A DNA stretch of 47,612 nucleotides, from NCBI GenBank assembly GCA_028817405.1, contig JAPPPS010000051.1, positions 1 to 47,612 of the forward strand, written 5' to 3'. The position numbers were made by a program, and so were the translations under genes. How positions within the stretch are numbered: the stretch's first letter is position 1; each line of letters opens with the position of its first letter. Origin of the DNA: Gammaproteobacteria bacterium (lineage in GTDB: Bacteria > Pseudomonadota > Gammaproteobacteria > Arenicellales > Poriferihabitantaceae). Positions 14,748-47,612 of the stretch are shown piece by piece. The notes beneath the pieces were generated by a model. It was not told the origin of the DNA and ran no database searches. It was given only the letters and a program-made list of their open reading frames with translations.

Positions 14748-16007
14748 TCACACCGCTTCGGCGCGCAGTTTAACGATGGCGCGCTCGGTGCTTTCTTCGA
14801 CCGTGAACCGGTAACCCATTTCCACCACGCTCTCGCCGGCCGCGGGGATGCGCCCGAGTTGCGCCATCACCAAGCCGCCGATGGTGTGCGACACGCGGCT
14901 GTTCAAGTTGATGTCCAGCACTTCGTTGACCTCGGACACCGACGACCTGGAATCGATGAGATACGCGCCGTCGCCGACTTTCTCGATGACGCGTTTGCGG
15001 CGCGGCAGGTACTCCTCAAAGTCATAACCGACATCGATGTCGCCGACCACTTCCTCGACGATGTCTTCCATGGTGATGATGCCGATGGCGGAGCCGAACT
15101 CGTCGACCACCACCGCCATGTGGTCGTCGCGCTGACGCAAAGTCGGCAGCAACTGGTCGATGGTTTGAAACTGCAGCACATAATGCGCCGGTTGAATCAA
15201 TTCTTCCAGTTGTTTGTCCGGCAATGCGGCGTCGAGCAAGTCCCATGTACTTAGCGTGACGATGCCGGAGATGTTGCTGATGTTGCCGCGGTACACCGGC
15301 AGACGGTTGTAACCCTTGCGCCGCACCGTGGCGATGGCGCGCAGAATGCCGCTGTTGCGGTCGATGGCGGTGACTTCGGCAATCGGAATCATGGCCTCGC
15401 CGACCGTGGTTTCGCCGAAGCGAATCACGCGGCGAATGCGGCCGCGGTCAAACGCATCGACCGCCGAGGCGCGCTCCGCCATGTCGACCACCGCGCGGAT
15501 TTGCTCGCGCGTCATGAACAAGTTTTGCTCGACTTTGCCGCCGCCGAAAGCGCGCGCGCACAACCTGGCGATGCGCGAGAAGATGAAGATGACCGGGTAA
15601 AACAAAAACGAGAAGATGCGCAGCGGATAAATCGCCAGAGGCGCGATGTCGTCGGCCTTCTGCTGGTAGACGCTCTTCGGCACGATTTCGCCGAGAATTA
15701 ACAGCAGCGGCGTGAGCACCAAGAAAGCGTACAAGTCGCCGCTGGCGCCGAACCATTTGATGAACACAATCGTGCCTAAAGTCGCCAACGCCACGGTGAC
15801 GATGTTGGCGCCGACCAAGGTGGTGCCGAGCAAAACATCCGGCTCTTTGTACAACTCCAACACCTTGCGCGCGCCGCCGTCGCCTTGGTTGGCGCGCGCG
15901 TTCAACTTGATTTTGTCGGAGTTCACCAGCGCGATTTCCGAGCCGGAGAAGAACCCCTTCAACAGCAGCAGAAGGACGATGAGAAGAATGATGCCGAGGA
16001 CCGTCAT
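14748..16007 (-). CDS. CNNM/CBS-domain (HlyC/CorC-like) membrane protein
   Basis: ILLIVLLLLLKGFFSGSEIALVNSDKIKLNARANQGDGGARKVLEL...FGETTVGEAMIPIAEVTAID...VVVDEFGSAIGIITMEDIVEEVVGDI. Confidence 0.92.
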   Translation of the reverse strand: MTVLGIILLIVLLLLLKGFFSGSEIALVNSDKIKLNARANQGDGGARKVLELYKEPDVLLGTTLVGANIVTVALATLGTIVFIKWFGASGDLYAFLVLTPLLLILGEIVPKSVYQQKADDIAPLAIYPLRIFSFLFYPVIFIFSRIARLCARAFGGGKVEQNLFMTREQIRAVVDMAERASAVDAFDRGRIRRVIRFGETTVGEAMIPIAEVTAIDRNSGILRAIATVRRKGYNRLPVYRGNISNISGIVTLSTWDLLDAALPDKQLEELIQPAHYVLQFQTIDQLLPTLRQRDDHMAVVVDEFGSAIGIITMEDIVEEVVGDIDVGYDFEEYLPRRKRVIEKVGDGAYLIDSRSSVSEVNEVLDINLNSRVSHTIGGLVMAQLGRIPAAGESVVEMGYRFTVEESTERAIVKLRAEAV

Positions 16008-17584
16008 GACGCGGCCTCCGTTTTTCTCCGACGCGCTTCGCCATCAACCGCATCGCGACCTTGATATACCGCACCGTCATCGGCGACGCCTTCCGCGACT
16101 TCATCCGCAACTTCTTCGGCCACTTCGGCCGCGGCCGCAACCGTGCCGCGCGCAGCACCGTCATCCGCGCCCGCGCCGACTTCCGCGCTGACTTCCCCGG
16201 CGCGCGCGAAGTCGTCGTCGTCCACGCCTTGCGCTACGCGCACCCGGGCGATGCGGTGCGCGTCCATTTCCAGCACTTGAATCATGATGTCATCCACGCG
16301 CACTTTGTCGCCCTCGCGCGGCAGGCGGTCGAGGTGACGGAAAGCCACGCCGCCGACGGTGGTCATGCGCGGGTCGTCCATGCCGAAGTTGGCGAGGTTG
16401 TCGAAGTCGTTGAGTTTCATGTCGCCGGGCACTTCGTAGATGTTGTTGTCCTTCTCGGCGTAGTAGTCGGCGGTGGCGCGGGTGCCGCCGCTGACATCGC
16501 CGAAGATGAAGTTGATGACGCCGCCCATGGTGATGAAACCTTCGACGCCGCCGAACTCGTTCAAGCATGCGGCGGCGCGCACTTCGTTGCCTTGAAAGAA
16601 GTCAAACATCTCATCGACTTTCTTGGTCAGCGGCACCACCACCGGCGGATGCATGATGTCGTGCGGCGACAACGCCTCCAAATCGCGGCCGTCCAGCACC
16701 AAGCGCAACACATCCTCGGCATGCACGAAGCCGACCAAGTTGTCGCGATGCGTTTTGAACACCGGCATGCGCGAGTGGCGGCAGGCGATAAACTTCTCCA
16801 CCATCTCCGGCACGCTCATGTCCATGTTCAAGAACGCCATGCGCGTGCGCGGCGTCATCATCTCGACGATTTCGGTGTCGGACGCTTCCAGCAGTTTATA
16901 AATCAGCGCGCGCTCGGTGGCGTCCAGCACGCCTTCTTCCGCGACTTGCTCGACCAAAGTCAGCACTTCGTCGACTTGCAAAATGTTGTCCGCGGCGCGC
17001 GGCTCGCCGACCAACCAAGTGGTGATGCGCTCGGCGACGCCGCGAATCGCCCACCGCAACGGCGCCATCAACCGCACCCAAAAACGCATCGGCGCGGCCG
17101 CGATGCGGGTGCTGTAGCGCACCGGGTTGTGAACCGCGATGGTCTTCGGTGTCACCTCGCCCAACAACAGCAGCAGCGGCACCATCACCAACAAGTTGAG
17201 CCAGCCGGCGTTCGCGCTGCCGTATAACTCGACCAAAATCGAAGTCATGTTGGCGGCGGCCGCGATGTTGACCAACTCGTTGCCGCTTAAGATGGAGATG
17301 ATTAACTTGCGCGGCTGGTCGAGCAGTTCGTGAATGGATTCGGCGCGCGGATTTTTTTCACGCCGCAGTTGCTGCAAGTCGAGACGCGAGAGCGAAAACA
17401 ACGCGGTCTCGGCGCTGGAAAAAAACGCCGAGCCCATCAACAGCAACACCTGCAGCGCGAGGCGCAGCGCCATGCCCGGCTCGGCCAACAACGCCGGGTC
17501 GAAAGCCAGGGCCGCGGCGGCCTGACAGGCCGCGGCTTGCGCCGCCTGCCAGTATGCGACGGTGAATGACAGAATCGATTCCAT
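16004..17584 (-). CDS. CNNM/CBS-domain membrane protein (paralogue of the next gene)
   Basis: LQVLLLMGSAFFSSAETALFSLSRLDLQQLRREKN...MTPRTRMAFLNMDMSVPEMVEKFIACRHSRMPVFKTHRDNLVGFVHAEDVLRLV...LNEFGGVEGFITMGGVINFIFGD; 4-nt ATGA overlap with downstream paralogue. Confidence 0.92.
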   Translation of the reverse strand: MESILSFTVAYWQAAQAAACQAAAALAFDPALLAEPGMALRLALQVLLLMGSAFFSSAETALFSLSRLDLQQLRREKNPRAESIHELLDQPRKLIISILSGNELVNIAAAANMTSILVELYGSANAGWLNLLVMVPLLLLLGEVTPKTIAVHNPVRYSTRIAAAPMRFWVRLMAPLRWAIRGVAERITTWLVGEPRAADNILQVDEVLTLVEQVAEEGVLDATERALIYKLLEASDTEIVEMMTPRTRMAFLNMDMSVPEMVEKFIACRHSRMPVFKTHRDNLVGFVHAEDVLRLVLDGRDLEALSPHDIMHPPVVVPLTKKVDEMFDFFQGNEVRAAACLNEFGGVEGFITMGGVINFIFGDVSGGTRATADYYAEKDNNIYEVPGDMKLNDFDNLANFGMDDPRMTTVGGVAFRHLDRLPREGDKVRVDDIMIQVLEMDAHRIARVRVAQGVDDDDFARAGEVSAEVGAGADDGAARGTVAAAAEVAEEVADEVAEGVADDGAVYQGRDAVDGEARRRKTEAAS

Positions 17585-20089: not shown

Positions 20090-20114
20090 TGTCCGTCACC
20101 GTACAACCGCCGTT

Positions 20115-20290
20115 ACCGTACAACCGCCATCGCCGTGCAATTACTTTCGCCGTGCAATTAAGTACGGCGGCGTAAGCCGCCATTCCGGACTGGATCCGGA
20201 ATCCAGAGTCTTTAATTGGTGCGTCGCGCAACGCTGCACATGAATTAAAGACTCTGGACTCCAACTTTCGTTGGAGTGGCGGGTGGGTAG
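20115..20290. repeat. Intergenic repeat cluster (ggaatccagagtctttaatt / inverted aattaaagactctgga)
   Basis: Contains GGAATCCAGAGTCTTTAATT and ATTAAAGACTCTGGACTCC in inverted orientation plus GTGCAATTAAGTACGGCG; shared cores with 31.9-32.1 kb and 47.3-47.6 kb. Confidence 0.8.
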
Positions 20291-20476
20291 CGGTCGACGA
20301 ATTAAACCGGCCTCATCGATTCGGATAATTGCTGTCCCCGCCTCTGGATACTTGCTTCCCTGCAGGCATGATGGCGCTTGCGCGACGGCGACGATAAGCG
20401 ACTTGATTTTCACCGTCGGAGTCGCGTATAAAATCCACCAGCCAAACATCCCGCCACAACCGCCAAGACAACCGTC

Positions 20477-21211
20477 ATGAAAACCAAAATCTACATCCCG
20501 TCAGACGATGCGCTTGAGGCGCTCATCAGCACGCCCAACTTGAGTTGGGAGAAAATCGCCGACCATTATCCGCCGAGCGTCGGCGTCCGCGACTGGCGCG
20601 CACTGCACAAATCGAAACACTGGCGCAAATTTTATTCCGCTTACGAACTGGCCGTCTCCTGGGAATCCGCCGACCCGTTTTTGCCGCGGGAAATCCAAGC
20701 ATGGTTCGGGAATTCCGCGGAGTTGTTGGCGGTAATTCCGGAACACAAAACACCGTTGCCGGGCGGCCGCCGGCCCAGCCAAACCGATGCGCTGGCTTTT
20801 ATCTGCAACGAGAACAAGGTTTATGCGGTTGCGGTTGAGGGCAAAGCCCACGAATCGTTTGGCCCAACCGTGGGCGAGTGGCGGAAAGACGAATCGGACG
20901 GAAAAATAGAACGACTGAAATTTATCTGCCAAACGCTTGGGTTACCTTATCCGCCGGCCAACAAAATTCGTTATCAGTTGCTCCACCGCACCGCCTCGGC
21001 GCTCATCGAAGCGGAGCGTTTTCATGCCGATTGCGCGGCGATGTTTGTGCACTCATTCGCGTATAAACAACCGCGCGAAAATTCCGAGTCGTTTGCGGAC
21101 TTCCTTTCCTTTTTGAAGTTGTTTAACATCTCGCTCGATGACAAAAAACCCTACACCAACGCCGAGAACGGCAAGCCCTTGTATTTCGCCTGGGTTTCGA
21201 CCCAACGGTAA
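20477..21211 (+). CDS. DUF6946-like protein (244 aa), putative PD-(D/E)XK-like fold
   Basis: DWRALHKSKHWRKFYSAYELAVSWESADPFLPREIQAWF...ELLAVIPEHKTPLPGGRRPSQTDALAF...VYAVAVEGKAHESFGPTVGEW...IRYQLLHRTASALIEAERFHADCAAMFVHSF. Family name from memory. Confidence 0.7.
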   Translation: MKTKIYIPSDDALEALISTPNLSWEKIADHYPPSVGVRDWRALHKSKHWRKFYSAYELAVSWESADPFLPREIQAWFGNSAELLAVIPEHKTPLPGGRRPSQTDALAFICNENKVYAVAVEGKAHESFGPTVGEWRKDESDGKIERLKFICQTLGLPYPPANKIRYQLLHRTASALIEAERFHADCAAMFVHSFAYKQPRENSESFADFLSFLKLFNISLDDKKPYTNAENGKPLYFAWVSTQR

Positions 21212-21235
21212 CTCGTCTCGACAAGTGAAATCGCC

Positions 21236-22927
21236 ATGAACAGAACTGCAACCCTGCTGTTAGCCGGCGGCGTGGTCGCCGCCCTTGCCGTTGTCCCGGC
21301 CATCGGTTACGGGGACAGTCGCGTTTATGTTCCGCCCAAGGATTCCAAATCGCAACTGGGTTACCGGGATATTTCCGGGCTCAACTGGCGGGAAATATCC
21401 AAGCATTATGCGCCGGCTAAAAGCATCGAAGATTGGCGCAAACTTCACTCCGAGCGGCACTGGAAAAAGGGCTATTCCGCGTATCAAATCGCCCACGCTT
21501 GGGAAAACGCCAACCCGAAGTTGCCGCGCGAAATCGCCGCGTTGTTTTACGGGCCGGTCGAATTATTGGCCGCCATTCCGGAGCATAAAACGCCATTGCC
21601 GGGCGGCCGCGCGCCGAGTCAATCCGACTTGCTGGTTTTTGTCCGCATAAAGAATCGCGTTTGCGCGGTGACGGTGGAAGGCAAAAAGGACGAAGGCTTC
21701 GGCACCACGGTCGGCGAATGGTCGAAGAACGCATCGGCCGGCAAAATCAAGCGACTCAAACACATCGCCGCCAAGTTAGGGCTCGCGTATCCGCCCACGG
21801 GCGAAATTCGCTACCAGTTGCTCCACCGAACCGCGGCCGCGGTGATTGAGGCCGGGCGCTTCAACGCCGACTGCGCCGCGACGCTGGTGCATTCGTTCTC
21901 GCCGCAGCACGAATCGTTCGGCGACTTTGCGACATTCTTAAGCGCGTTTGGAATTCGCTCCGCCAAGCGCGACAAGATTTACAAAACCACCAAGCCGGGC
22001 ATCGATTTGTATCTCGGCTGGGCATCGCCGCCGGGAACGGTTGCGGTGGCGGAAGTTGCTGCGCCGCAGCCGAAACCCGCCGTGCCGGCGAAGCCTGAGC
22101 CGCAACAATCGGAACGGGCAACGGTGACCACAGAAACCGTTGCGCCGCGGCCCGAACCCGTCGTCACCGCCAAGCCCGAAATTCAACAGGTCGCCCGGGT
22201 GGCGGAGACGGCTGTGGTAACAGAAACCGCCACACCGTCACCTGAAACTGTCGCGATTGCGCCCGCCAAATCCGCAGCGCAACAGCATGAACGGCAACCG
22301 GAAACGGCCACGCCAGTTCCTTCGCCACAACCAGCCCAAACGCAAACAACCGCGTTCATCGTGGGAGGGATTGTCGCACTTGCGCTTATTGTCGGTCTTG
22401 TCGCGCTTCTCATGTGGCGACATTTTCGTCTTAATACCGAGAAAACTGACAAGAGCGACACTGTATCCGCGGCAGATGAGGGCGAAAAAGATTCAAGCGA
22501 CAAGCCGGGAAAAGTGTTTGAAAAATATGTGGAGGGTTTGTTGTGCAACCGCGAGAACGTTAAGTTAACGAAGCCGACCAATAAGTTCGACTACCCGGAC
22601 TTTGAAATGACCATCCGCGACGAAAAATGCAGAATTTTTCTGGAATGTAAGTGGACGAATAGCCTCTATCAAGGGCATTACGATGTTATTCGCAATCCGA
22701 AGCAATTGCAGAAATACAAAGACTATCAAAAAGAGTACAATCAGCCGTTCTTTATTGTGCTCGGTGTCGGCGGCACCGAGGACAACCCCGACTATTTGTA
22801 TACCATCTCGCTGAATAAATTGCCCCAAACTAAACTCAATTACGAGCAATTAAAGGACCATCTCCAAAAGCCGGGCGGCTACTGCGGGTACAGTCCAAGT
22901 AACGATACTTTGACTATTTCACGGTAA
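21236..22927 (+). CDS. Putative membrane protein: N-terminal signal/TM + DUF6946-like domain + Pro/Ala linker + TM + C-terminal PD-(D/E)XK/Mrr-like domain
   Basis: MNRTATLLLAGGVVAALAVVPAIGYGDS leader; paralogous block LLAAIPEHKTPLPGGRAPSQSD...AVTVEGKKDEGFGTTVGEW...IRYQLLHRTAAAVIEAGRF; TM TTAFIVGGIVALALIVGLVALLMWRHFRLN; C-terminal FEKYVEGLLCNRENVKLTKPTNKFDYPDFEMTIRDEKCRIFLECKW. Confidence 0.75.
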   Translation: MNRTATLLLAGGVVAALAVVPAIGYGDSRVYVPPKDSKSQLGYRDISGLNWREISKHYAPAKSIEDWRKLHSERHWKKGYSAYQIAHAWENANPKLPREIAALFYGPVELLAAIPEHKTPLPGGRAPSQSDLLVFVRIKNRVCAVTVEGKKDEGFGTTVGEWSKNASAGKIKRLKHIAAKLGLAYPPTGEIRYQLLHRTAAAVIEAGRFNADCAATLVHSFSPQHESFGDFATFLSAFGIRSAKRDKIYKTTKPGIDLYLGWASPPGTVAVAEVAAPQPKPAVPAKPEPQQSERATVTTETVAPRPEPVVTAKPEIQQVARVAETAVVTETATPSPETVAIAPAKSAAQQHERQPETATPVPSPQPAQTQTTAFIVGGIVALALIVGLVALLMWRHFRLNTEKTDKSDTVSAADEGEKDSSDKPGKVFEKYVEGLLCNRENVKLTKPTNKFDYPDFEMTIRDEKCRIFLECKWTNSLYQGHYDVIRNPKQLQKYKDYQKEYNQPFFIVLGVGGTEDNPDYLYTISLNKLPQTKLNYEQLKDHLQKPGGYCGYSPSNDTLTISR

Positions 22928-31915: not shown

Positions 31916-32085
31916 TCTGCTCCCGCCCACGAGCGGGGGATTCTGGATTCCGGGTCGCGGTCATTCGTTGCGTCTAAAGCCGCCGCAATTAATTGCACGG
32001 CGTATACAGTGACATTGCCACGGTACTTAATTGCGCTACCGAAAGACTTGGACGCCGGAATCCAGACGCCACGGATGGCAAATTA
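31916..32085. repeat. Intergenic repeat cluster (inverted and direct segments shared with 47.3-47.6 kb)
   Basis: ctgctcccgcccacgagcgggggattctgg (31916-31945) matches the reverse complement of 47495-47524 at 28/30; ggaatccagacgccacggatggcaaatta (32057-32085) is identical to 47364-47392. Confidence 0.9.
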
Positions 32086-47280: not shown

Positions 47281-47562
47281 CCGTCATTCCCGCAGGTTTT
47301 TAAGCGGGAATCCAGAGTCTTTGATTCCGCGGCGCGAAGCGCCGCAATTCCTGTTTGGAAACAGGAATCCAGACGCCACGGATGGCAAATTATCCGACTC
47401 GACGATGCCGATTTGAATCGCCAGCGCCGCCCCTCACTCGTCACCCCCGCACGGCGCGAAGCGCCGTCATTCCCGCAGGTTTTTAAGCGGGAATCCAGAG
47501 TCCCCCGCTCGTGGGCGGGGGCAGGCTTTTTTTTGATTCCTCGCCAGGTCAATTAAAGACTC
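47281..47562. repeat. Intergenic repeat cluster with two identical 39-bp copies of ccgtcattcccgcaggtttttaagcgggaatccagagtc
   Basis: Copies at 47281-47319 and 47464-47502, plus inverted gaatcc segments and ggaatccagacgccacggatggcaaatta. Confidence 0.93.
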
Positions 47563-47612
47563 TGGATTCCGTATCGGTGAGGAATAGTGGCGCTACGCTT
47601 CCTTATTCCTCT

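Follow-up and report, generated by a model that had tools for sequence, protein, structure and literature searches.

A tandem pair of DUF6946 genes

The window, by which we mean the whole 47,612-nucleotide stretch of DNA analysed here, contains two adjacent genes on the same strand that are separated by 24 bp (Table 1), and for which the coordinates and reading frames given in a first-pass annotation proved to be correct. Both products belong to the DUF6946 family, with bit scores in a Pfam profile search of 223.8 for gene 1 and 237 for gene 2 against a gathering cut-off of 27. The first-pass annotation had described the two genes as paralogues and the first product as soluble, and both descriptions hold. 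Gene 1 and gene 2 share 54% identity across 237 aligned codons, they are placed as sister sequences (support 100/99) on a long stem in a tree of 62 DUF6946 sequences, and the highest Kyte-Doolittle value anywhere in the gene 1 protein is 0.75. The paralogous stretch is evidently under purifying selection, because dN between the copies is 0.40 and dS is 1.42 (dN/dS of about 0.28), and these values, together with the identity and the sister placement on a long stem, show the pair to be an old tandem duplication that has been kept under constraint.

Table 1. Features of the gene pair and of the stretch immediately upstream, with positions in the window.
Feature	Position	Strand	Evidence and remarks
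Upstream intergenic stretch with palindromic repeat, arms 20198-20228 and 20232-20262	20090..20476	.	Within the segment missing from relatives
Gene 1, soluble DUF6946 protein, 244 aa	20477..21211	+	PF22187, E=2.2e-66; without hydrophobic segment; family-invariant residues
Gene 2, predicted membrane-anchored two-nuclease fusion, 563 aa	21236..22927	+	PF22187, E=2e-70
N-terminal hydrophobic segment of gene 2, residues 5-23, signal peptide or signal anchor	21248..21304	+	Kyte-Doolittle mean 2.33
DUF6946 domain of gene 2, residues 60-264 (Pfam match)	21413..22027	+	PF22187; pLDDT mostly >90; predicted extracytoplasmic
Linker of gene 2, 104 aa, rich in Ala, Pro, Thr and Val, residues 267-370	22034..22345	+	Composition; low-confidence and structureless in the model; predicted to span the periplasm
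Transmembrane helix of gene 2, residues 374-392, then basic WRHFR (positive-inside)	22355..22411	+	Kyte-Doolittle mean 2.96; helix 371-401 in the model
C-terminal PD-(D/E)XK-type domain of gene 2, residues 425-563, no Pfam entry	22508..22924	+	Family alignment; predicted cytoplasmic

The DUF6946 domain

DUF6946 (PF22187) was built by Durairaj et al. in 2023 from their component 6,732, was assigned to the PD-(D/E)XK clan CL0236, and was named as a putative restriction endonuclease family, its precise function being left unassigned there (PMC10584680). By structure comparison it resembles type II restriction endonucleases, and most of all the mismatch endonuclease EndoMS, the published fold match having come mainly from DALI (PMC10584680). 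The link between DUF6946 and nucleases was thus already published in 2023 and is not new here.

Both window proteins, which are members of the family by profile, retain the published (E/D)-Xn-(E/D)XK active-site motif. In gene 2 the core comprises E116, D131, E148-x-K150, and E153, and in gene 1 the corresponding residues are E89, D104, E121-x-K123, and E126; the five positions are invariant in all 62 of the sequences aligned, which come from many phyla and include both window copies. The D...VEGK pattern to which the first-pass annotation drew attention is this same invariant core. In the structural model of gene 2, residue D131 starts one strand and E148-x-K150 ends the next, after which comes a helix, and this is the order expected of PD-(D/E)XK enzymes. 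From its sequence, we predict that gene 1 encodes a cytoplasmic PD-(D/E)XK nuclease.

Anatomy of the gene 2 protein

The second protein had been proposed to begin with a signal or transmembrane segment, and to continue, beyond its DUF6946 block, with a Pro/Ala/Thr-rich linker, a transmembrane helix near residues 371-393 and a run of basic residues. Each of these elements is borne out, by hydropathy peaks for the two hydrophobic segments, by composition for the Ala/Pro-rich linker, and by the WRHFR that follows the second segment (Table 1); the region of the transmembrane helix is also modelled as a helix, in a block with pLDDT of 70-89. A fold computed from the single gene 2 sequence was uninformative (mean pLDDT 42) and was set aside. 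Foldseek searches of the PDB and viral libraries with the full, alignment-based model of gene 2, which is largely unstructured and dominated by the linker and the unmodelled C-terminus, returned nothing significant, and the published DUF6946 fold match was therefore not reproduced here.

We infer from the order and charge of these segments that the DUF6946 domain of gene 2 is periplasmic and that the C-terminal nuclease domain is cytoplasmic. The anatomy of gene 2 in itself, apart from any mechanism, we consider highly probable, and the architecture appears to be undescribed.

A family of C-terminal nuclease-like domains

The C-terminal sequence of gene 2 on its own has no match in either Pfam or the PDB. 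A second seed was provided by Riemerella phage proteins, which match at a borderline E value of 0.05 and align over the motif, and the resulting two-sequence profile finds relatives in Bacteroidota with E values of 1e-13 to 1e-17. With an enlarged profile, two Bacteroidota families yielded 12 and 13 positives among 150 genomes. The family is rare nonetheless, with two positive genomes among 300 sampled evenly across the Bacteroidota phylum, and among 249 genomes of the window's own phylum the domain was found only in the genome from which the window comes. Searches of phages, plasmids, and viral contigs gave nothing significant beyond the borderline Riemerella phage lead. Two apparent matches were rejected, one (G177, locus L018) being a chance match in a peptidase-like reading frame and the other (G144, locus L017) containing internal stops.

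An alignment of 22 members shows conserved points at FE, PD, E-C-K, Q...Y, and F..LG.GG..P, and the domain thus has a PD...(E)xK core together with a glutamate in the preceding helix. FE is present in all 22 sequences, the proline in 21, the aspartate in 20, the glutamate in 21, and the lysine in 19, and the window copy has all of them, as FE428-429, PD454-455, and ECK470-472; the FDYPDFEM...FLECKW motif picked out in the first-pass annotation is accordingly the conserved core of a real family. Individual members match PDDEXK_11 (E=5e-4), RestrictionMunI (8e-3), and PDDEXK_15 (0.17) in Pfam. The PDDEXK_11 and MunI-type families share the same order of motifs, although these weak profile matches come from the relatives and none from the window sequence. 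The family profile has no match in the PDB, and PDB sequence searches with either window protein or with the profile gave nothing meaningful. We take the domain as a PD-(D/E)XK family with no entry in the copy of Pfam that was searched. Comparison of its profile with that of DUF6946 detects no relationship between the two.

A layout that recurs in Bacteroidota

A transmembrane helix precedes the nuclease in about 15 of the Bacteroidota relatives of the C-terminal domain and is absent in about 11. Six of those with the helix have a full plan comprising a signal peptide, an exported domain, a transmembrane helix, basic residues, and the C-terminal nuclease, and basic residues lie on the nuclease side of the helix in all ten membrane members checked. 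The exported slot is occupied by SH3b in two of the six (PDB matches 2krs, 2kq8, and 8b2g) and by a shared domain of about 150 aa in the other four; the latter looks NTF2-like, and a search with it found nothing. Gene 2 follows the same plan, with the DUF6946 domain in the exported slot. The nuclease core is partly lost in two of the four NTF2-like members and in one other relative. In the Bacteroidota loci L115 and L117 the exported domain and the transmembrane helix are kept and the ExK core is degenerate (ECIY and KCFY), and these proteins are possible pseudo-enzymes in the same layout.

These sequences point to an unnamed family of membrane-tethered nucleases with exchangeable exported domains that recurs in Bacteroidota. 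The first-pass annotation had proposed for gene 2 a sensor/effector-like layout with a nuclease-like domain on each side of the membrane, and this stands in so far as two different PD-(D/E)XK-type domains flank the membrane helix and the plan recurs in Bacteroidota with other exported domains; for the C-terminal fold it holds as a prediction, drawn from the motif, weak profile matches, and the predicted order of strands and helices.

Genomic setting of the pair

The pair is flanked by ppk1 and by a run of housekeeping genes that lie mostly on the opposite strand, coding for a Trm112-like protein, a fatty-acid hydroxylase, a class IV aminotransferase, Dus, glutamate-cysteine ligase, and UvrB. 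The Trm112-like gene comes immediately after ppk1, with no DUF6946 gene between them, in a genome from the same genus and in several others from the same family, and a search of 59 relatives turned up no DUF6946 gene; the empty site and this absence together indicate that the cassette, of about 2.8 kb, was gained. The C-terminal segment of gene 2 has a GC content of 44%, the DUF6946 segment of 59%, and the neighbouring genes of about 60%, with GC3 values of 0.59, 0.73, and about 0.80 respectively, and the lower values of the C-terminal segment are consistent with a fusion of parts from different sources.

The palindromic repeat directly upstream of the pair is one copy of a dispersed repeat with the core CGGAATCCAGAGTC, found in the window at 20150-20290, near 31940-32002, and at 47307-47575, far above chance; the copies near 31940 and at 47310-47575 are diverged. 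Upstream of ppk1, at 14748-17584 of the window, lie two adjacent genes, in tandem, for CNNM/CorC-type transporters with CBS domains.

Distribution and neighbourhoods of DUF6946

The survey covered 81 DUF6946 loci, drawn from one viral contig and from genomes that span many phyla. The proteins are soluble, almost always of a single domain of about 220 aa, and nearly always one to a locus, whereas gene 2 is predicted to be exported, anchored in the membrane, and fused to a second nuclease. There is no convincing transmembrane helix, no fusion to the C-terminal domain seen in gene 2, and no tandem partner among the 81 loci, and the architecture in the window is thus unique in this sample. Of 45 genomes searched in full, 41 contain a single copy and the other four an additional one that is non-adjacent or partial; plasmid-borne copies are also single. 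Six of 399 genomes of the phylum have a DUF6946 match above the cut-off, the window's own being counted.

A few loci depart from this pattern in other ways. The large N-terminal extensions at L054, L055, and L070 are likely to be spurious upstream reading frame and were not accepted as extra domains. In a metagenome-assembled genome labelled Euryarchaeota (L092:2098-3240) the DUF6946 protein is extended at its C-terminus by about 138 aa, which do not resemble the C-terminal domain in the window. On one Mesorhizobium plasmid (L015:8001-14746) two halves of DUF6946 are separated by about 6 kb of DNA that carries IS21-type and integrase genes, and on another (L013:8097-10684) DUF6946 is broken, with pieces on both strands.

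No defence genes were seen beside the pair in the window, and neither protein matches a PADLOC 2.0 model at E values up to 1. Among 127 immediate neighbours of DUF6946 genes elsewhere, strong matches to defence models are seen for some (GajA, type II restriction endonuclease and methyltransferase, IetA, PDC-S11, and PDC-S15) but not for most, and by Pfam the neighbours are a mixture of metabolic and DNA genes; a claim of defence-gene enrichment was dropped, the scans having had no matched control set. The only directly adjacent neighbour family that recurs is a small gene downstream of DUF6946 in four Mesorhizobium loci (L033:1879-2394, L040:6152-6604, L056:6645-7121, and L083:6645-7127), with a GYDVIA...VSVKSR motif. 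Its product looks PD-(D/E)XK-like, and it may be a second nuclease-like gene beside DUF6946. At loci of the C-terminal family, type IIG restriction-modification genes are present in three of the 20 surveyed.

A conserved paired DUF6946 system is not what the survey finds, as homologues occur almost always singly and in mostly unrelated contexts, an outcome that the first-pass annotation had named as counting against its reading, and there is thus no general DUF6946 pair system. A defence role for the pair, which the first-pass annotation had also suggested, we treat as a possibility; its neighbours in the window are housekeeping genes.

A possible mechanism and its alternatives

Tethered interception of foreign DNA by the cassette, considered as a whole mechanism, seems to us plausible but somewhat short of probable. 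The two-gene cassette would have been gained horizontally, and gene 2 would derive from a tandem copy of gene 1 that acquired an export signal and was linked, by the long flexible linker and one transmembrane helix, to a membrane nuclease domain of the Bacteroidota type. In the periplasm, the exported DUF6946 domain would engage DNA or a structure that delivers it; the inner nuclease, which its tether would keep off the chromosome, would cut DNA as it emerges at the membrane; and gene 1 would act on DNA that reaches the cytoplasm. In this we infer catalysis, the substrate, the anti-phage purpose, and the division of labour between gene 1 and gene 2.

We count in favour of the interception model the domain and motif evidence for both folds, the Bacteroidota layout, the clean insertion, the low GC of the C-terminal segment, the type IIG genes near the C-terminal family, those neighbours of DUF6946 that match defence models, and the precedent of SNIPE, discussed below. 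Against it we count the lack of defence neighbours in the window and of a PADLOC match, the single and unrelated DUF6946 loci, the occurrence of the fusion only once, the C-terminal fold without a confident model, and the null result with Foldseek; moreover, none of the published membrane systems compared has a nuclease active site that faces the periplasm, and this too weighs against the model. A further reading, in which gene 2 is a one-protein, two-compartment nuclease whose domains are both catalytic and strike incoming DNA from both sides, and behind which stands an unnamed family where the exchangeable exported domain sets the response, we regard as possible but doubtful.

It is rather unlikely, in our judgement, that the DUF6946 domain of gene 2 senses DNA, a phage tail component, or envelope stress without cutting, and switches on the cytoplasmic nuclease with resulting damage to phage or host DNA and abortive infection. 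SH3b in the Bacteroidota exported slot looks like a binding module, which makes the slot likelier to serve recognition than catalysis, and the loss of the nuclease core in some relatives suggests that the layout tolerates non-catalytic roles; however, gene 2 keeps all of the DUF6946 core residues, as a pure sensor need not, and the ratio of dN to dS between the copies indicates constraint.

A role in DNA metabolism, either in processing of DNA taken up or in mismatch or damage repair of the EndoMS kind, would fit with the standing of EndoMS as the closest published structural relative and with the housekeeping genes on either side of the pair. DUF6946 is nevertheless sparsely and patchily distributed, being absent from the 59 relatives and above the cut-off in six of the 399 phylum genomes, it occurs on plasmids and on a viral contig, and the cassette is a clean insertion; these are traits of accessory genes and not of repair genes, and we consider such a role improbable.

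The topology might also be the opposite of that described above, with segment 5-23 no export signal and both nuclease domains cytoplasmic and anchored by helix 374-392. There is one basic residue before segment 5-23 and there are several after it, so that the orientation cannot be read from the first segment alone, and no clear signal-peptidase site is apparent by eye. Helix 374-392, however, is immediately preceded by uncharged residues and followed by WRHFR, a pattern that puts the linker outside, and the Bacteroidota relatives with clear signal peptides share the arrangement; we regard the opposite topology as distinctly improbable. That the fusion is an assembly artefact, with the C-terminal domain wrongly joined to a DUF6946 gene, is very improbable, for although the assembly is a draft of 160 contigs, the C-terminal part is much lower in GC, and a second instance of the fusion was not found, the gene is one uninterrupted frame in which the linker and transmembrane helix make a sensible join, the same layout is present in unrelated genomes, and on the downstream side the flank agrees with the syntenic neighbours in relatives.

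Comparison with known membrane-located systems

Zorya, Kiwa, and SNIPE are grouped in a 2026 review as DNA-targeting systems located at the membrane (PMC12904381). Zorya and Kiwa resemble the arrangement predicted here in tying membrane-embedded sensing to components that act on DNA, but they are multi-protein systems, built on the ZorAB motor and on KwaA respectively, and we see neither genes of this kind next to the pair nor any domains in common.

The closer likeness is to SNIPE (formerly PD-lambda-1), an inner-membrane nuclease that cuts phage DNA as it is being injected. SNIPE does no harm as long as it is tethered but becomes toxic when its transmembrane segment is removed, and its N-terminal regions are variable and may govern phage specificity (PMC13190303). 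Gene 2 would share with SNIPE a tether to the inner membrane within one protein, a cytoplasmic C-terminal nuclease, and a variable N-terminal region, and a SNIPE-like membrane-tethered nuclease is the best mechanistic model that our analysis offers for it. The two differ in that SNIPE combines a GIY-YIG nuclease with DUF4041 and has little of its mass in the periplasm, whereas gene 2 is predicted to have a PD-(D/E)XK domain inside and a full nuclease-type domain outside. As neither GIY-YIG nor DUF4041 is matched by Pfam in gene 2, it is not a member of SNIPE, though it may work alike.

The plan seen in Bacteroidota, of an exported domain, a linker, a transmembrane helix, and a C-terminal PD-(D/E)XK domain, may constitute an undescribed and testable family with exchangeable outer domains, and DUF6946, until now a matter of structural prediction only, would gain a second setting, one suggestive of DNA entry as its theme. 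If the layout of gene 2 is as predicted, the recently described principle of telling self and non-self apart according to location at the membrane, known from SNIPE, would extend to another nuclease superfamily and to a construction in which a nuclease-type domain lies outside.
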